Part shown: piece by piece, positions 8,152-16,731 of the stretch
How positions within the stretch are numbered: the stretch's first letter is position 1
How the letters are laid out: the number at the start of each line of letters is the position of its first letter
Origin: an uncultured Nitrospiraceae bacterium
GTDB taxonomy: Bacteria; Nitrospirota; Thermodesulfovibrionia; Thermodesulfovibrionales; Thermodesulfovibrionaceae
Direction: 5' to 3'
DNA length: 51,330 nucleotides
Assembly (NCBI GenBank): GCA_937139565.1
Contig: CAKZQH010000010.1
Location: 1 to 51,330, forward strand
Position numbers and translations under genes: made by a program
The notes under the pieces: model-generated
The model's database searches: none
Told to the model about the DNA's origin: nothing
Seen by the model: the letters and a program-made list of their open reading frames with translations, nothing else

Positions 8152-9204
8152 ATGATGGACGCCATATCTTTAATACCATATGCTGAAGCAGTTCCCGTTC
8201 CTCCGTTGATTCTCATTTTTCTTGAACAGCTGTTTTTCCTTATACACATAATTCTTGTGAATTCCATACTTGGTGTTGGGTTAATTCTTCTATACAAATG
8301 GAAAAGAACCGTGGATTTCTTTGATATTAACAGGCCTCTTGCGAGAAGGATTCCAATTTTCTTTGCCCTTGCAATAAACATGGCAATTCCTGCCCTTTTG
8401 TTCCTGCAGGTTGTTTTTGGTCATTTATTTTATTCAAGCTCTGTTCTCATGGGAACCTTCTGGATTTTGATAATTCCCATTCTCATTATTGCCTACTACA
8501 GCTCCTATTTTCACTATAAAAAATTTGGAGTTTCTCAATATGCAAAATACTCTTTGATTTTGATGATTTCCCTTGTTCTCTATGTGGCATTCATACTTGT
8601 AAACAATCTATCAATGATGGAGATGCCTGAGAAGTGGAGCCTTTATTTTTCAGAAAGGGGAGGAACCATTCTTCTGTGGAGCGTTTCAAGCATATATCCG
8701 AGATTTCTCCACTTTATTGTGGCCTCCCTTGCAGTGGGAGGTATTGTTTATGCCTTTTATTTCAGTAAAAAGTCAAATTCTGAGAAGAATGCTATGGATG
8801 GCATCAGGATTTTTGCCTATGCAACCATGGTTCAAATGGCTGTTGGAGTGTGGTTTCTTGTGAGCTTGCCAGAAAGTATTATGCTTAAGTTCATGGGCAG
8901 AGACAGTGTCGCTACCCTTGTGCTCGTCGCAGGTATAGGAACAGCAGTTTTATCAGTCATATTAGCCTTTAAAAATAATCTAAAAGGCACATTAATATTT
9001 CTCCTTATAACATTGATTGCTATGGTGATAAATAGATACAATTTGAGAATTTTCTCTCTTGAGGATAAATTTAGCCCTACAAGTCTGGAAATTTCTCCGC
9101 AGTGGGATGTTTTTGTGCTTTTTGTGGTCATTTTGCTCATAGGGGTAGGAGTACTCTTTTATATGGTAAAAATCTCATTTAAAGGCAAAGAGGAAGCTAA
9201 ATGA
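8152..9204 (+). CDS. Cytochrome bd oxidase-like (CydA-type) integral membrane protein
   Basis: This 350-residue protein is almost entirely hydrophobic, with about nine predicted transmembrane helices, and recalls the N-terminal half of cytochrome bd subunit CydA. His32 sits in an early helix ('FFLIHIILVNS'), where CydA has the heme ligand of 'MYHFLF'. His187 lies in 'FLHFIVASLAVGG', which closely parallels the CydA segment around its heme b558 ligand His186. Its stop overlaps the start of the next gene by 4 nt (ATGA), so the two proteins are probably made together and form one complex. The CydA 'Q-loop' and a CydB partner are absent, so it is not a canonical bd oxidase. Electron transfer between the quinone pool and the fused cytochrome is an inference. 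The start could be either of two consecutive ATGs. Confidence 0.7.
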   Translation: MMDAISLIPYAEAVPVPPLILIFLEQLFFLIHIILVNSILGVGLILLYKWKRTVDFFDINRPLARRIPIFFALAINMAIPALLFLQVVFGHLFYSSSVLMGTFWILIIPILIIAYYSSYFHYKKFGVSQYAKYSLILMISLVLYVAFILVNNLSMMEMPEKWSLYFSERGGTILLWSVSSIYPRFLHFIVASLAVGGIVYAFYFSKKSNSEKNAMDGIRIFAYATMVQMAVGVWFLVSLPESIMLKFMGRDSVATLVLVAGIGTAVLSVILAFKNNLKGTLIFLLITLIAMVINRYNLRIFSLEDKFSPTSLEISPQWDVFVLFVVILLIGVGVLFYMVKISFKGKEEAK

Positions 9205-11852
9205 ATTATCCTGTTTGGGAACTTTACTATCTCAATTCAGGAACTGTTGTAGCCATAATTGCAATTCTACATGTATTTATTTCTCATTTCGCAGTGGGTG
9301 GAGGAATATTTCTGTGGCTTACTGATCTTAAAAGTGTTCGGGAAAACAATCTCCCTCTTCGAGAATATGTTCGAAGGCATCTGTGGTTTTTCCTTCTTGT
9401 TACAATGGTGTTTGGTGGTGTATCTGGTGTTGGAATATGGTTTTCCATTGCTCTTTCAAATCCTGCAGCAACTTCCTTACTTATTCACACCTTTGTATTT
9501 GCTTGGGCAATAGAGTGGGTTTTCTTTATAGTTGAGATAGTTTCTCTTCTTATCTATCACTACAGATTTGAGGTTCTCTCCAACAAGCAAAGACTTACAA
9601 TAGCATTTATATATGCTCTTTCGGCTTGGTTAAGCCTTTTTGTAATAAATGGAATCCTGACCTTTATGCTAACTCCTGGAGAGTGGCTTAATACAAGGAA
9701 TTTCTGGGATGGATTCTTTAATCCAACCCATTTGCCAGGCCTCTTTTTTAGAACCTCAATTTGTATTATGTTTGCAGGGCTTTTTGGATTTGTAACAGCC
9801 CTGTATCAAAAGGATGAAAAGCTTAAAGTTACACTGCTTCGTTACTGTGCAAAATGGCTTTACATTCCGCTTCCTTTTCTCTTCTTATCAGCTGTATGGT
9901 ATTTCTCCTCTTTGCCTGAAAGTGCAAGGTTTACAAATTTTGTGCTCAACAAGCAGACTCAAAATCCTTTGAATGTGTTTCTCTTTTCATCGGTGCTTAT
10001 CTATATTGTGGCCATCCTCTTTGTCCTTAAAACAAATAAAATCATCCAGAAGGTTGCTTTAATTCCACTCTTACTTATAGGACTCTTCTGGATAGGCTCT
10101 TTTGAGTATTTGCGGGAGTATGCGAGAAAGCCTTACATAATATATGGTTACATGTATTCTCCGTCGATTATCGTTACCGATGCGGAGAAATTAAACAAAG
10201 AAGGATTCCTCAAACATGCAAAATGGACAAAAATCAAGGAAATAAGCGAGGAAAATAAGATACAGGCAGGAAGAGAGCTTTTCAACTTACAATGCCTGAG
10301 TTGCCATACAATAGGTGGAGTAAAAAATGACATTATCAAAAAAACCGAAGGACTTACCTATCTTGGAATTGTCTCTCAGATATATGGTCAGGGTAAAGTT
10401 CTTGACTATATGCCTAAATTTGTTGGAACTGAAAGGGAGATCGAAGCCCTTGCATCATTCATAGTGAGCTTAAGAGGAAAGAAGGAAGAACCACATGCAG
10501 AATTCACTCCTAAGGAAGAGCCAGTCTTTATACCATCCTTTGATCCAAAAAAGGATGAATATGTGCTTCTTGTTTGGAGTGTGCTTGGAGAAAAATGTAT
10601 TACCGATTCAGATAGATGGTTTTCCTTTCTTTATGCTGGAAGCACCCTTCAGGCTTTGTTGATTAAGAGGGGAGTAAAACCAGAAATAATCACAGAGGGA
10701 GTAGAGATCCATTACATACCTCCAAGAGGACATGAAAATCCCTCAAAATATCTCGATTTCTGGAAATACTCGGAGTCATTGAGAGGAAAGAAAATTCCTG
10801 GAAACGTAGGTGTCAGCGGAAAGACAGTGCGAGGAGTATTTGACTTTGACAAGGATAGAAAAATCTTCATTGCCGATGCAGTTCCTGTTTCTCCATATAG
10901 TGATGACGGTGCTTTTAATCCTTATCCAATTTTTGATGCAAAGGCAATTGAAAAAAGCACTGGTAAGGTTTTACAGCAAACACGCTTCGTTGTTCCTGTA
11001 TCTACAGAGCTTAGATGCTTTGTATGTCACGGTGGAAAACCTCGTTTTAACGGTATTTCAGGCATCTCTGATGAGACTGCTATAAATATTCTTAAAATAC
11101 ACGATAGAAATCACGGTACAAAGCTATATGAAAATGCCTTGAAGGGCAAGCCTATGATGTGCCAGAAATGCCATGAAGACTTTATTGTTAAGTCTGAGGG
11201 AATAAAGGGACACAACAGTTTCTCTGCATCTATGCACGGCTGGCATGCCAACTATGTACCATACAAGGATGAAAGAGCTTGTAACTTCTGCCATCCAAAT
11301 GATGCTAAAGGAAATACGAGATGTAACAGAGACATACATACAAAGCTTGGTATAGGATGTACTCGCTGTCATGGAAAACTGGATGACCATGCAGCATCTG
11401 TGCTTCTTGCCCAGAAAGACTCACGAACAGCGTCCATACTTCTAAAAAATCTCAAACCTGAGACGCCAATTGAAAAAATAAATCCACGCAAACCATGGGT
11501 AAATCAGCCAGACTGTCTTAGTTGTCACATCGGATTTACTAAGCCTTCAGCTGATGCAAATGGTTTTAACAAATGGACCTCTGATTTTGGCACCCTTTAC
11601 AGGGTAAGAATGGATAATACAGGAAAAATTCCTTGCACTGCCTGTCACAGCTCTCCACATGCAGTTTATCCCGCATTCAATGACTTTGGGAAAAACAGGG
11701 ATAATATCCAGCCAATGCAGTATCAGGGAAATCCATTTCCAATCGGTGCAGACATGAAATGTGAAGTATGCCACAAGGTTAAAATTCAAGGCACAGGGCA
11801 CCATGCAGATATTTTAAAGATGTTCAGAAATAGAAAAGCTTTACAGCAGTAA
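9201..11852 (+). CDS. CydA-like membrane domain fused to an octaheme cytochrome c
   Basis: This is an 883-residue fusion. Residues 1 to about 305 form roughly eight membrane helices similar to CydA: His24 matches the heme ligand of the first CydA helix, and Glu105 and Glu112 ('IEWVFFIVEI') match the conserved glutamates of CydA. However, the position corresponding to the b558 ligand is Arg184 ('FFRTS'). After it comes a mono-heme cytochrome c domain (Cys365 to His369), a beta-rich region without hemes (about 435-600), and a seven-heme tail with CxxCH motifs starting at Cys606, 654, 694, 720, 772, 812 and 854, eight in total. The heme part should be outside the membrane, in the periplasm. It is co-translated with the preceding bd-like gene and followed by an oxygen-binding diiron protein. 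It may be a terminal reductase or a quinol-cytochrome link; oxygen reduction is not shown by sequence. Confidence 0.8.
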   Translation: MNYPVWELYYLNSGTVVAIIAILHVFISHFAVGGGIFLWLTDLKSVRENNLPLREYVRRHLWFFLLVTMVFGGVSGVGIWFSIALSNPAATSLLIHTFVFAWAIEWVFFIVEIVSLLIYHYRFEVLSNKQRLTIAFIYALSAWLSLFVINGILTFMLTPGEWLNTRNFWDGFFNPTHLPGLFFRTSICIMFAGLFGFVTALYQKDEKLKVTLLRYCAKWLYIPLPFLFLSAVWYFSSLPESARFTNFVLNKQTQNPLNVFLFSSVLIYIVAILFVLKTNKIIQKVALIPLLLIGLFWIGSFEYLREYARKPYIIYGYMYSPSIIVTDAEKLNKEGFLKHAKWTKIKEISEENKIQAGRELFNLQCLSCHTIGGVKNDIIKKTEGLTYLGIVSQIYGQGKVLDYMPKFVGTEREIEALASFIVSLRGKKEEPHAEFTPKEEPVFIPSFDPKKDEYVLLVWSVLGEKCITDSDRWFSFLYAGSTLQALLIKRGVKPEIITEGVEIHYIPPRGHENPSKYLDFWKYSESLRGKKIPGNVGVSGKTVRGVFDFDKDRKIFIADAVPVSPYSDDGAFNPYPIFDAKAIEKSTGKVLQQTRFVVPVSTELRCFVCHGGKPRFNGISGISDETAINILKIHDRNHGTKLYENALKGKPMMCQKCHEDFIVKSEGIKGHNSFSASMHGWHANYVPYKDERACNFCHPNDAKGNTRCNRDIHTKLGIGCTRCHGKLDDHAASVLLAQKDSRTASILLKNLKPETPIEKINPRKPWVNQPDCLSCHIGFTKPSADANGFNKWTSDFGTLYRVRMDNTGKIPCTACHSSPHAVYPAFNDFGKNRDNIQPMQYQGNPFPIGADMKCEVCHKVKIQGTGHHADILKMFRNRKALQQ

Positions 11853-11902: not shown

Positions 11903-12691
11903 ATGCCACCTAAAACCAGAGAAGTTGATATTGTAAGAGGAGACACTCTTTATGACGATGGAGTCCATAAATTCATATGGCTTGGATGGGAAGAACATGA
12001 AGAAGAGGGACTTGTTCAGGTGAATCAGTATCTTATTGAAAACAGAGGAATGGGGGTTATTCTTGATCCCGGAGGAGTTCATGTGTTTCCGAGGGTTGTT
12101 GCAAATGTATCCCGTTATGTTGATCTCGACAAAATTGGGCATCTGTTCTTTTCTCATCAGGACCCTGATGTATCTTCTGGCGTTGCCCTTTGGTTAAGTG
12201 TAACAAATGCAAAGGTTTATATCTCAAAATGGTGGGTCAGATTTCTCCCTCACTATGGCATTTTCGATATGAATAAAATTGTTCCTCTTGAGGAGGGAGG
12301 AGGACGTATTGCCCTTCCAAGTGGTGATTATCTTGAAATAATACCTGCCCATTTTCTTCATTCTGTGGCAAACTTTCATGTCTATGATCCTCGTTCAAAG
12401 ATTCTATTTACAGGAGATCTGGGAGCTGCAATCTTTCCAAAAGGACAGAGATATACTTATGTGGAGGACTTTGACAGTCATTTAAAGCTCATGGAAGGGT
12501 TTCACAGAAGATATCTTGCATCAAACAATGTTATAAGAAGATATCTTGAAAGGATAAAAAACCTTGATATAAATGTGGTTGCACCTCAGCATGGAGCTAT
12601 AATGCACAAAAAAGAGCACATTCAGAGATTTTTTAACTGGCTTTCAGGGCTCAAGTGCGGTTCTGACTTAATAGATGAATTCTATCGATAG
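11903..12691 (+). CDS. Oxygen-binding diiron protein (ODP), metallo-beta-lactamase fold
   Basis: This 262-residue protein is the diiron domain of the flavodiiron (FprA) family without the flavodoxin part. The metal-binding pattern is visible as His85-x-Asp87-x-Asp89 ('SHQDPD'), a histidine at 150 or 153, Asp172 in 'FTGDLGA' and His230 in 'APQHGAI'. The HQDPD form, in place of the HxExDH of oxygen-reducing flavodiiron proteins, is characteristic of ODP. In Treponema denticola ODP is an oxygen/iron sensor that works with a cytoplasmic chemoreceptor. Here too the next gene, 10 nt downstream, encodes a soluble chemoreceptor. The start has a strong GAGGAGG upstream. Oxygen sensing is an inference from family and context; a catalytic role without a reductase domain seems less likely. 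Confidence 0.85.
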   Translation: MPPKTREVDIVRGDTLYDDGVHKFIWLGWEEHEEEGLVQVNQYLIENRGMGVILDPGGVHVFPRVVANVSRYVDLDKIGHLFFSHQDPDVSSGVALWLSVTNAKVYISKWWVRFLPHYGIFDMNKIVPLEEGGGRIALPSGDYLEIIPAHFLHSVANFHVYDPRSKILFTGDLGAAIFPKGQRYTYVEDFDSHLKLMEGFHRRYLASNNVIRRYLERIKNLDINVVAPQHGAIMHKKEHIQRFFNWLSGLKCGSDLIDEFYR

Positions 12692-12701
12692 GAGGAAGTG
12701 A

Positions 12702-13577
12702 ATGTTTTTTAGAAGAAAAAGAGTTTCGTCCAATAATAGTAAGTTGGTGGATACTAATCTTGCATTAATCAAAACTCTCTCTGCAGGAATAATAAAGTCA
12801 AATATTGTGGGTTCAACCATATCAAATACAATGGGACTTATAGAATCCAATTTTACAAGAATTAAAGATGAAGTCTCCTCAATCGCAACTGCCATGGAAG
12901 AAATTGATGTTACCATTAGGGATATGTCAAAAAGTGTTGCCTCCATAAATATGGAAGTTCAGGCAATGGTAAAGCAAAATGATTCAATGGATGAAGAACT
13001 TGAGAGAAGAGTAAATGACATAGAGTCTCACAATCGCAAAATAATTGAAGTTGTTGATAACATAAAAGACCTTGGTCATGCCACTGAAAATATCGGAAAC
13101 ATTGTAACTTCTATTTCGGATGTGGCGGATCAGACAAATCTTCTTGCTTTGAATGCATCAATAGAAGCAGCAAGGGTAGGTGAGGCAGGAAGGGGTTTTG
13201 CAGTGGTAGCCGATGAAATCAGGAAACTATCTCAGAAAACTGAGGCACTCACAAAGGACATTAGTAAAATTCTGGGAAACCTGCGAGAAAGAGTAACATC
13301 AGCGGTTGTTGAGGTTGAAAAAATAAGGGAACTCTTTTTAAGCATCGAAGAGGATATGAAAAATATTAGAAAATCCTTTGAAAAAACCAAAACTATGTCT
13401 GATACTGTTGGAGATGCAGTAAATACCCTTTCTACTGCAATTGAAGAGCAAAGTCAGGTACTCACCGATGTTTCAAAGCGAATTACAAATACTGCATCAA
13501 TGTTAAATGAGACCTATAAGGTATTCTCTACAGTAATAAAGGTAAATGACGAAATATCAAAGCTTACAAAATTTTAG
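12702..13577 (+). CDS. Cytoplasmic methyl-accepting chemotaxis protein (no sensor domain)
   Basis: This 291-residue protein has the conserved chemoreceptor signalling hairpin ('DQTNLLALNASIEAARVGEA', then 'GRGFAVVADEIRKLS') at about residues 140-185, flanked by long coiled coils. There is no signal peptide, no transmembrane helix, and no PAS, GAF or other ligand domain. It must therefore take its input from a partner protein, and the ODP gene ends 10 nt upstream. An AGGAGG sits before the ATG. Its 3' end overlaps the next gene by 32 nt. By analogy with spirochete ODP systems it would pass oxygen or iron status to CheA. No CheA or CheW is encoded in this window, and the output could instead be linked to the c-di-GMP enzyme that follows. 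Confidence 0.88.
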   Translation: MFFRRKRVSSNNSKLVDTNLALIKTLSAGIIKSNIVGSTISNTMGLIESNFTRIKDEVSSIATAMEEIDVTIRDMSKSVASINMEVQAMVKQNDSMDEELERRVNDIESHNRKIIEVVDNIKDLGHATENIGNIVTSISDVADQTNLLALNASIEAARVGEAGRGFAVVADEIRKLSQKTEALTKDISKILGNLRERVTSAVVEVEKIRELFLSIEEDMKNIRKSFEKTKTMSDTVGDAVNTLSTAIEEQSQVLTDVSKRITNTASMLNETYKVFSTVIKVNDEISKLTKF

Positions 13578-16500
13578 TTGTGACGGAGAAAATTTTAACT
13601 TTGCCCTCTGTCCTCATGTAAATGAGAATGACGTTTCTAAGTGGGAGAGTATTGCTGAACGGATTTCCTCTGTAATAAATAAAAGAGTTACACTGAATCT
13701 TTTCTCCAACAATTTTGACATTCCCTTAGCAGATAAGTGCTGTCACATGTACTATGCAAATCCTGAATTAACCCTTGAGCTTTTAAAGAGAGGCTACCTA
13801 CCAGTGGCTAAACTTAAGGACGCTCAAGAAAGCCTGTGTAGTATTTCGTTACAAAATTATGAGCCTAACAAAAAATCTGTTAGAGTTGCTTTAGTAAATC
13901 AAAGATATTTTCTACTTCCACTTCTTATGCACAAGAGAGAGTTTAAAAAATTTAAACTTGTATTCGTAAAAAACTACACAGAAGCTCTTGAACTTTTAAG
14001 AGCAAATAAGGTTGATTTAGCCTTTATTTATACACAGTTTGCAAATACCCTTAAGGAGGATAAATCTATAAATTTCGTTGAGGACTATTGTTTTCCTCTA
14101 CCTCACTACATACTAATTCATCCTTCCCTTGAGCCTTATAGGGATGCAATTGAAGGAATAGATTTTTTCAAACCTGTTAAAGAAAGTGACATAGATTATC
14201 TTAAATCGCTTTACGAAATGCTTGATAAACTTCTTGCTGATTGGGCTCATCATGATATTGCAGAAGCTGTAATAGGCTCACCAAATTTTGGGGTTATAGT
14301 TTATCAGGAAAAAATTGTATATGCAAATGAATATGCAAGGGAAATCCTCGGATACTCAGAGGAAGAGCTATTCAGAAAAAGTGTTTTAGAGATTATACAT
14401 GCAGAAGATAAAGAGATGATAGAACTTTTAAAGGATAGATACGAAAAGAGACTTAAAGGAGAGAAATTTATAGGAACCTACGAGTTACCTTGGAAAAAAA
14501 AGGATGGCACCATCGTTTATACGAGATGCTTTACCAGTACAATTCTTTTTAAGGGAAGATATTCTGGCTTTATTTTACTTACTGATATAACTGAACAAAA
14601 ATTTGCAGACAAATTTAAAAATATCCTGATGGAAATAAACAAAGTAATAACAAAAAGTCTCACTGAAGAGGAAATATATGAAGGAGTCTGCAGAGCCCTC
14701 ACAGAGAAGCTTGGAATGGTTTTTGTCTGGATATCTGAACTGGACGAATCAAAGAGCAAATTACGGATAAAATATAAATGTGGAGATGACAGAGGAATAT
14801 TCGATGTATATGATTTTAAAATATCCTCATCTGATACAGTCACATACGAATCATTAGAAAAAGGAAAAATCATTGTAAATCCAAATTCAATTGAATACGC
14901 TAAAAGGGTTTCCTGTGCAGAGGAACTTGTAAAAAGAGGGTTTCTCTCATCATGCACAATACCATTTATTAAACACGGCAAAGTGATTTCGCTTTTAAAA
15001 ATTTATTCAGCCCAGCCAAATTTTTTCAATGAATCTGTAATGGAAATTCTTGAAGAGATTCAGAACGATATATCATTTGCTCTTGAAAAAATAGAAATGA
15101 TAAGAGAAAATCTCATATTGTCCGAGTCTTTAAAAAATTCAGATACCTGGATTTTGATAACAGATATAAATGGAAGAATTACTTATGTGAATGATGCGGT
15201 AGAGAGAATAAGTGGATACAGAAGGGATGAACTTATTGGAAAAAATCCAAGAATTTTTAAATCAGGGCTTAATCCTCCTGAATTTTACAAGGAAATGTGG
15301 AACACTATCCTTTCTGGCAAAGTTTTTCGTGCTGTTACTCCTAATAGAAAAAAGGATGGTGAGATATTTCATGTGGATTTAAAAATTATACCTGTTAAAC
15401 TTCCTGGAGGAGAACTTAAGTTTGTTGCTGTTGCAGAGGATATTTCAGAGAAGATGAAACTCTCTGAGAGAGTTCAGGAATTACAGAACTTTGATGCCCT
15501 TACAGGACTGCTCAATATGAACGGATTTTCAGCAAATATATCTCAACATCTTCAGGAAACATCAAGGCTCGGGCTTTTAATCTTAATTGATATTTATGAC
15601 ATGACATATATAAACAAAATTCTTGGTATATCAAACGGTGATAGGTTATTGCAGGAATTTGCAGAGAGACTTAAAAAGACCTTTGGAGACACCGAATTTG
15701 TCGCAAGAATAGGTGCAGATACCTTTGGAATCTATTTAGTAACAGAGAGCTCTGATGATCTTTATAAAGCCTACTCTAAAATTTATGGATTAAACAATGC
15801 AGTCTTTAAAATTAATGAAAAAACAATTTCTGTGAACATAAATGCAGGAATTACCATTTTTCCAAAAGATGGGAAAAACTTTAAAATCCTCTATGAACGA
15901 GCAGATATTACTCTACAACAGTCAAAGAAAATGGGTCCTGGTCATATTCAGTTTTTTGATCCTGTGATTGAAGATGAGGCAGAAAAGCTCTGGGATGTAT
16001 TTTATCTTGTTAAGAAAGCTAAAGAGGAGAATCTCTTTAGATTTTACTATCAGCCCTATTATTATGCTGATACATTAGAGATAGCAGGTTTTGAAGCTTT
16101 GGTTAGAATAATTGATAAAGAGGGAAAGCTTTACACTCCTAATGTTTTTATAGATTATTTAGAAAACAGTCAATATCTTGAATTTTTTGAGCAGTGGGCA
16201 ATTTCAGAGGTAAAGGAAAAAATAAAGAAGTGGAATAAGAGGATATCTCTAAACATATCAGGCAGAACTTTTAGTAATCCCCTTTTTTCGGTAGTTATTT
16301 CTGAAATTAATTCACAGCTAAGAGATAAGCTTACCATCGAGATCACCGAGCGACTTTTTATAAAAAATCCAGAATATGCCATTCAAATTCTCTTAGATAT
16401 AAAACGTATGGATAGCCCACCTCAAATTGCAATGGATGACTTTGGCACAGGATATTCTTCAATTGTTTATCTCAAGGATTTGCCAATTGACATCATAAAA

Positions 16501-16731
16501 ATTGATAGAAGTTTTACTAAGGATATGATGAGTGATAAGAAAAGTTTAGTAATTGTTCAGACAATCATAAATCTTGCAAAAAGACTAAAAAAAATCGTCC
16601 TTGTTGAGGGAGTTGAGACTGAAGAACAATTCGATATTGTAAAAAATTTTGGATGTGATTTAGTTCAGGGATATCTCTTCTCAAAGCCTCTTCCAGAGGA
16701 AGAGATTGAAAAGTTGTTAATCAATAATTGA
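13546..16731 (+). CDS. PhnD-like/PAS/GAF/PAS/degenerate GGDEF/EAL c-di-GMP phosphodiesterase
   Basis: This 1061-residue cytoplasmic protein has no signal peptide or membrane helix. The domains in order are a PhnD/SBP-like solute-binding fold (about 1-235), PAS (about 240-355), GAF (about 360-515), a second PAS (about 525-640), GGDEF (about 640-790) and EAL (about 815-1055). The GGDEF motif is changed to GADTF at residue 723, so cyclase activity is unlikely, although GTP binding is possible. The EAL domain keeps EALVR (Glu850), 'EITERLF', 'DDFGTGYSS' and 'VEGVET', so hydrolysis of c-di-GMP to pGpG is likely. The ATG lies 32 nt inside the end of the chemoreceptor gene and is preceded by AAAGG. 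The N-terminal PhnD call is a pattern judgement. The protein probably ties the oxygen module to lifestyle or motility control. Confidence 0.82.
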   Translation: MTKYQSLQNFSCDGENFNFALCPHVNENDVSKWESIAERISSVINKRVTLNLFSNNFDIPLADKCCHMYYANPELTLELLKRGYLPVAKLKDAQESLCSISLQNYEPNKKSVRVALVNQRYFLLPLLMHKREFKKFKLVFVKNYTEALELLRANKVDLAFIYTQFANTLKEDKSINFVEDYCFPLPHYILIHPSLEPYRDAIEGIDFFKPVKESDIDYLKSLYEMLDKLLADWAHHDIAEAVIGSPNFGVIVYQEKIVYANEYAREILGYSEEELFRKSVLEIIHAEDKEMIELLKDRYEKRLKGEKFIGTYELPWKKKDGTIVYTRCFTSTILFKGRYSGFILLTDITEQKFADKFKNILMEINKVITKSLTEEEIYEGVCRALTEKLGMVFVWISELDESKSKLRIKYKCGDDRGIFDVYDFKISSSDTVTYESLEKGKIIVNPNSIEYAKRVSCAEELVKRGFLSSCTIPFIKHGKVISLLKIYSAQPNFFNESVMEILEEIQNDISFALEKIEMIRENLILSESLKNSDTWILITDINGRITYVNDAVERISGYRRDELIGKNPRIFKSGLNPPEFYKEMWNTILSGKVFRAVTPNRKKDGEIFHVDLKIIPVKLPGGELKFVAVAEDISEKMKLSERVQELQNFDALTGLLNMNGFSANISQHLQETSRLGLLILIDIYDMTYINKILGISNGDRLLQEFAERLKKTFGDTEFVARIGADTFGIYLVTESSDDLYKAYSKIYGLNNAVFKINEKTISVNINAGITIFPKDGKNFKILYERADITLQQSKKMGPGHIQFFDPVIEDEAEKLWDVFYLVKKAKEENLFRFYYQPYYYADTLEIAGFEALVRIIDKEGKLYTPNVFIDYLENSQYLEFFEQWAISEVKEKIKKWNKRISLNISGRTFSNPLFSVVISEINSQLRDKLTIEITERLFIKNPEYAIQILLDIKRMDSPPQIAMDDFGTGYSSIVYLKDLPIDIIKIDRSFTKDMMSDKKSLVIVQTIINLAKRLKKIVLVEGVETEEQFDIVKNFGCDLVQGYLFSKPLPEEEIEKLLINN

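Follow-up and report, generated by a model that had tools for sequence, protein, structure and literature searches.

A CydA-like membrane domain fused to eight c-type hemes in Thermodesulfovibrionaceae: a predicted oxygen reductase of the bd superfamily fed by periplasmic cytochromes

The window analyzed here is a stretch of 51,330 nucleotides from an uncultured Nitrospiraceae bacterium of the GTDB family Thermodesulfovibrionaceae (GenBank assembly GCA_937139565.1, contig CAKZQH010000010.1, positions 1 to 51,330). Two open reading frames (ORFs) on its plus strand, 8152-9204 (350 amino acids, aa) and 9201-11852 (883 aa), share 4 bp and are the subject of this study. An earlier note, made from the sequence alone, placed both ORFs correctly, and the domain order that it gave for the larger product holds as well: a CydA-like membrane domain, one cytochrome c domain, a heme-free beta-rich part (about residues 450-604, without CxxCH) and seven further CxxCH motifs. 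The features of the gene pair are as follows.

8152..9204, plus strand: partner membrane protein, 350 aa (structure model with a pLDDT, the model's local confidence score, of 84.2; Foldseek and VIA-align; profile-profile comparison)
8245..8247, plus strand: partner His32 in the first transmembrane (TM) helix, possible heme b ligand (32/32 partners)
8710..8712, plus strand: partner His187 in TM5, possible heme b ligand (31/32 partners)
9201..11852, plus strand: CydA-like/octaheme fusion protein, 883 aa (ORF, model, motif count, genome scan)
9201..10169, plus strand: CydA-like membrane domain, residues 1-323, eight TM helices (model, VIA-align, positive-inside rule)
9270..9272, plus strand: His24, putative active-site heme ligand, equivalent of Geobacillus CydA His21 (47/47, alignment)
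9513..9515, plus strand: Glu105, equivalent of Geobacillus CydA Glu101 (47/47, alignment)
9534..9536, plus strand: Glu112, equivalent of Geobacillus CydA Glu108 (47/47, alignment)
9750..9752, plus strand: Arg184, where canonical CydA has the heme b558 ligand His186 (47/47; aligned with this genome's own canonical CydA)
10116..10118, plus strand: Glu306 in the motif REYARKPY, equivalent of Geobacillus Glu378 (47/47, alignment)
10236..10475, plus strand: mono-heme cytochrome c domain, residues 346-425, C365-H369 (Pfam Cytochrome_CBB3, 1.6e-6)
10548..11012, plus strand: beta-rich domain without CxxCH, residues 450-604 (strands of the model)
11013..11804, plus strand: heptaheme module, residues 605-868, seven CxxCH (motif and His conservation; Pfam Cytochrom_c3_2, 5.7e-8)

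The relationship of the membrane domain to CydA, which the note had proposed by eye, is borne out by profile and structure comparisons; the outcome named there as its main refutation, a lack of any relation to CydA, did not arise. Searched as a single sequence with phmmer against the PDB, the 883-aa protein matches CydA only at E 0.19; a 14-sequence profile retrieves 5doq_A, the CydA of Geobacillus, at E 2.5e-9. An AlphaFold model computed from 47 sequences (mean pLDDT 90.2) leads to the same chain in Foldseek (E 8.9e-7), with bd subunits throughout the first 19 rows, and VIA-align superposes it on ten CydA chains with Z 29-31 over ~310 residues, the next fold following at Z 16. The model settles that the predicted fold of the membrane domain is of the CydA type.

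His24, Glu105, Glu112, Arg184, Glu302, Arg305, Glu306, Arg309 and Pro311 are invariant in all 47 relatives, fused and unfused. Four of them, His24, Glu105, Glu112 and Glu306, align to His21, Glu101, Glu108 and Glu378 of Geobacillus CydA; the first three had been matched to CydA by the note, which overlooked the fourth (REYARKPY, aligned to AEVGRQPW around Glu378). In E. coli CydA we take the equivalents to be His19, Glu99/Glu107 and Glu445, and these positions are presumably those of the ligands of the two active-site hemes. By this alignment, the 883-aa protein on its own supplies a full predicted ligand set for two active-site hemes. In an alignment with the host's own canonical CydA, Arg184 stands at the b558 ligand His186, as the note had observed. 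Since the residue is Arg in 47/47 sequences, the exchange appears as a trait of the whole group and is not special to this protein. The loop between TM6 and TM7 comprises only 14 residues (238-251), and hence there is no Q-loop; together with the replacement of the b558 histidine by arginine, this makes quinol an unlikely donor. The positive-inside rule applied to the eight TM helices places both ends of the membrane domain on the periplasmic side. The c hemes are therefore predicted to lie in the periplasm, where they are made; the cytochrome c domain begins shortly after Glu306, and two cytochrome c assembly proteins are encoded in the host genome.

The eight CxxCH motifs start at residues 365, 606, 654, 694, 720, 772, 812 and 854. 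In 2000 shuffles of residues 346-883 the mean number of such motifs is 0.022 and the maximum 2, which rules out a chance origin. His369 and Met404 of the mono-heme domain are present in 47/47 relatives, and judging from this conservation Met404 is likely the sixth ligand. The beta-rich residues 450-604, taken from the full model and not folded separately, yield weak fold matches in VIA-align (Z 5-6). In the heptaheme module the seven CxxCH motifs and His634, His679, His682, His713, His820, His867 and His868 are kept in 40/40 fused proteins, and His730 in 34 of these. Because seven invariant extra histidines match seven hemes, the module would have no open site and reads as a wire of seven bis-His hemes, not as a catalyst; a catalytic multiheme part such as a nitrite reductase is ruled out by an invariant histidine for each of the seven hemes. 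Separate, apparently secreted cytochromes match residues 450-734 at about 31-36%. Eight loci (L031-L038) hold apparently secreted or lipoprotein-like cytochromes with 7-10 hemes, akin to the beta-rich and heptaheme parts, and the separate proteins related to the heptaheme module carry 7, 8 or 10 CxxCH motifs, 7 in six of the eight inspected.

What is less obvious from the sequence is the nature of the 350-aa partner. Pfam bd families were not detected in any of the 13 partner proteins searched, and a partner profile matched nothing in the PDB. The structure matches of its model, in Foldseek and VIA-align alike, are bd subunits, with Z 24-27 for CydA chains and Z 24.0 for the CydB chain 5doq_B; furthermore, a profile-profile comparison of the partner and CydA-like families aligns them across the whole membrane domain (probability 97.6, E 2.8e-12). 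By its model, the partner has a predicted bd-subunit fold, and it is a paralogue of the CydA-like domain. Its conserved residues His32 and His187 may bind a heme of the partner's own. According to the note, His187 stands in the position matching the lost b558 ligand; the histidine is indeed conserved, but it aligns opposite Phe183, one residue ahead of Arg184. A scan of named genomes found at least 532 relatives of the 883-aa protein, of which the best 80 loci were kept. The partner gene lies directly upstream of the fusion gene in 71 of these, with a 4-bp overlap in 42 of the 71; contig ends account for four loci, and in five the partner is not nearby. Four of the five loci without an adjacent partner were searched further, and in all four genomes the partner is found elsewhere. 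Given this near-constant adjacency, it is very likely that both proteins form one complex.

We predict that the gene pair probably encodes a two-subunit oxygen reductase of the bd superfamily which is fed by periplasmic c-type cytochromes and not by quinol; we infer O2 as the substrate, and likewise the direction of electron flow, the donor, the heme types and energy conservation. According to this model, periplasmic donors would reduce the seven bis-His hemes, where electrons enter, and these would pass electrons to the cytochrome c domain behind the last TM helix, with its His/Met heme. From there, the electrons would reach two b- or d-type hemes at His24, Glu105, Glu112 and Glu306 near the periplasmic face, and O2 would be reduced at this di-heme site. 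The partner would correspond to CydB or to a second CydA, and it may carry a b heme of its own. The note's idea of electron exchange between the membrane part and the periplasmic hemes is in our judgment right. In Thermodesulfovibrio, the most likely role would be the removal of O2 at the expense of periplasmic reductant, i.e. H2, formate or the cytochrome c3 pool. If this is true, anaerobes including sulfate reducers gain a quinol-independent membrane oxygen reductase fed straight from periplasmic cytochromes; going by its title, cited among the references of PMC4383621, a study by Baumgarten from 2001 deals with periplasmic oxygen reduction by Desulfovibrio.

The host is a heat-loving sulfate reducer with a genome of 1.99 Mb, whose close relatives bear Thermodesulfovibrio names. 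It also encodes a canonical CydAB, and a COX1-type oxidase has no match in its genome. A Thermodesulfovibrio genome paper attributes oxygen detoxification to cytochrome bd, with gene numbers that could mean either CydAB or the present pair, and describes a periplasmic hydrogenase, a formate dehydrogenase and a class III cytochrome c (PMC5165239). Directly after the fusion gene, at 11903-16731 of the window, an ODP gene, a chemoreceptor signalling gene and a PAS/GAF/GGDEF/EAL gene follow in a row, of which the first two are:

11903..12691, plus strand: ODP-family oxygen-sensor-type diiron protein, a neighbour and not part of the complex (Pfam ODP, 2.2e-74)
12702..13577, plus strand: chemoreceptor signalling protein without obvious sensor part, a neighbour (Pfam MCPsignal, 1.5e-36)

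In Treponema denticola, the combination of ODP and chemoreceptor has been reported to act as an oxygen sensor (PMC7666581). An ODP gene is found downstream in seven of 12 fusion loci from Thermodesulfovibrio and one close relative, and in five of the 80 loci (L103, L105, L106, L110 and L112) a canonical CydA gene precedes the fusion at a distance of three or four genes. Clustering of the neighbours revealed no gene common to the whole fusion family; the larger clusters, named by eye as purF-, NnrU- and HypE-like, are mostly from Desulfobulbales.

Several observations weigh against an oxygen reductase. Taken alone, the Pfam score for Cyt_bd_oxida_I (E 3.3e-6; 26.4 bits at a cut-off of 26.2) gives borderline support for the CydA relationship, and the equivalence of His24, Glu105, Glu112 and Glu306 to heme ligands is based on sequence alignment. 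As the host also has a canonical CydAB, an oxygen role of the gene pair would not be unique. The ODP neighbour is absent from five of the 12 Thermodesulfovibrio-type loci, and the neighbour clustering showed it in no locus outside this type. Finally, most carriers live anaerobically, and in such organisms a multiheme membrane protein could just as well pass electrons outward. The last point leads to the best of the alternatives, according to which the membrane pair oxidises menaquinol, acceptors in the periplasm or outside the cell receive the electrons by way of the cytochrome c domain and then the heptaheme module, and the bd site no longer reduces O2. The predominance of sulfate reducers and other anaerobes fits this explanation, as does the resemblance of the module's relatives to secreted, lipoprotein-like multiheme cytochromes; moreover, the Nitrospina genome paper discusses a role like that of alternative complex III for bd-like proteins, should these be able to interact with quinone (PMC3578206). 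We nevertheless regard outward transfer as unlikely, given that the Q-loop is missing, that the b558 histidine is arginine in 47/47 relatives, and that the ligands of the O2 site are just as invariant, which a pure quinol dehydrogenase does not need.

Somewhat less likely still is the reduction of another small molecule, such as nitric oxide (NO) or peroxide, at the same membrane di-heme site and via the same wire. The site is deduced from its ligands only, and canonical bd oxidases have also been linked to NO detoxification (PMC10839748). Yet some loci have oxygen-linked neighbours, i.e. the ODP sensor and canonical CydA, and no NO-linked gene was recognised among the neighbour clusters, read by eye. 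The suggestion of the earlier note that hemes are held between both membrane proteins, His187 of the partner standing in for the lost histidine, is very improbable in spite of the conservation of His32 and His187 and the paralogy of the two proteins, as the active-site ligand set predicted for the larger protein is complete, so that no ligand need come from the partner, and as a CydA-like protein occurs without a partner match in three of three genomes with a cable-bacterium-like marker.

The oxygen reductase predicted here is not confined to the host lineage. All eight CxxCH motifs are found in 76 of the 80 best loci, which rules out an assembly artefact or a private fusion. Of the remaining four, three (L070, L099 and L115) are cut off by contig ends and one is a split gene, that of Thermodesulfovibrio sp. 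N1 (L044:946-3601), which is divided into frames of 769 and 98 aa by a frameshift or a sequencing error. Carriers belong to Thermodesulfobacterium, Desulfobulbaceae, Desulfobacterales, Desulfovibrionaceae, Desulfuromonadaceae, Bacteroidales, Calditrichota, Spirochaetota and others. In a draw of 295 genomes from the host phylum, the full-length protein is present in the host and in 10/10 other members of its genus, with a split copy in G093, and also in one genome of another family (G230); identities in this draw are 65-75%. One draw from the order of Desulfogranum gave a match at 1e-20 or better in 83 of 146 genomes, a count that includes matches to parts of the protein or to separate heptaheme proteins.

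Relatives that carry one to three hemes and have a partner of this kind fall outside the eight-heme clade. Since such a pair, with a single heme c, is present in unfused relatives, the core of the system appears to be the CydA-like protein with its cytochrome c domain plus the partner, to which the heptaheme module was added. A branch of seven one-heme rows is nested inside the eight-heme clade; its members, of Desulfobulbales type (L161-L165, L167 and L173), retain the first heme only, likely by secondary loss of the heptaheme part. The SH-aLRT branch support is 93 for the set with all eight-heme rows and 97 for the nested branch. The tree comprises 118 rows, was inferred with a quick method and is midpoint-rooted for drawing only; L001-L020, L029, L031-L038, L039 and L040 and rows matching <350 model columns were left out. 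Three of its 23 one-heme rows (L133, L137 and L139) duplicate L091, L113 and L041 in shortened form, and the nine label changes of the eight-heme group include these shortened copies as well as the truncated or split L070, L044, L099 and L115. Read by us, not computed, after setting all these rows aside, the topology is consistent with a single fusion followed by a single loss of the seven-heme part, with moderate support. Other arrangements occur among the relatives: in L168-L170 and L166, CydA-like proteins have three or two CxxCH motifs and the partner gene is located downstream, not upstream; in L026-L028 and L172, the CydA-like protein has one heme c, the partner carries a di-heme cytochrome c tail, and a small cytochrome gene with two or three CxxCH motifs is situated just upstream.

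The fusion family also bears on oxygen reduction by cable bacteria. These organisms are reported to possess a CydA homologue but to lack a full bd oxidase, so that their means of reducing oxygen is in question (PMC10030654), and a globin marker is described as exclusive to them (PMC11976967). Three Desulfobulbales-type genomes contain long ORFs with globin domains, two globins per ORF in two of the three, and five CxxCH motifs in the only one of these ORFs in which they were counted. The same genomes encode CydA-like proteins of 423-435 aa with one heme c (L157:5692-6966, L158:6133-7440 and L159:6048-7319). A query with the partner had no match in these three genomes and matched in 7/7 others. 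These proteins may correspond to the orphan CydA reported from cable bacteria, provided that the globin marker identifies the genomes correctly. They resemble the 883-aa protein in being CydA-like; they have one C-terminal heme c and, comparable to REYARKPY, the motif TRERARKPY. They differ in the lack of a partner match and of the heptaheme part, are 22-23% identical overall, and do not conserve Glu112, unlike all 47 relatives of the 883-aa protein. The heme c on the CydA-like protein indicates a cytochrome as the donor and not quinol. A more far-reaching interpretation, which we put forward only tentatively, is that of undescribed and widespread bd-type oxygen reductases of anaerobes which bypass the quinone pool by means of a seven-heme wire for periplasmic, perhaps extracellular or interspecies, electrons; the wire would have been gained once and later lost by a single branch of Desulfobulbales, and cable bacteria would possess, in their orphan CydA, a partnerless member of this cytochrome-c-fed group.

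By its fold and ligands the gene pair belongs to the cytochrome bd superfamily; it is not a canonical quinol oxidase. With canonical CydAB (qOR, e.g. Geobacillus 5doq) it shares the fold of both subunits and the active-site residues His24, Glu105, Glu112 and Glu306. The canonical enzyme has the b558 histidine and the Q-loop, both missing from the 883-aa protein, and lacks the fused octaheme part; its CydB, unlike the partner, is recognised by Pfam. Canonical CydA has nine TM helices, one more than the membrane domain described here. The note contrasted the fusion with canonical bd oxidases as having no heme c, which is true of those enzymes, but the literature also knows non-canonical members of the superfamily that presumably accept electrons from cytochrome c and not from quinol (PMC10839748, PMC3578206). 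Among them are the OR-N bd-like proteins of Nitrospira and Nitrospina (CydAA'), described there as presumably cytochrome c-using pairs of CydA-type proteins (PMC10839748, PMC12342949), which the gene pair resembles in that both of its subunits are paralogous. Three aligned Nitrospirota bd-like sequences, presumably OR-N according to PMC12342949, are not closely related to the 883-aa protein (17-19% identity), and none has a heme c of its own; a separate mono-heme cytochrome gene stands beside both of the two such genes whose next gene is fully visible. Our literature search found no description of a CydA-octaheme fusion; the bd classification by Murali, Gennis and Hemp lay outside this search and may list it. 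That classification, from 2021, reportedly defines an OR-C family of CydA type with no quinol site and a C-terminal cytochrome c. The one-heme relatives fit this description, and the 883-aa protein shares its C-terminal cytochrome c and the lack of a quinol site, adding seven hemes and a beta domain that this description does not include. Going by the description, OR-C is the likely home of the gene pair.

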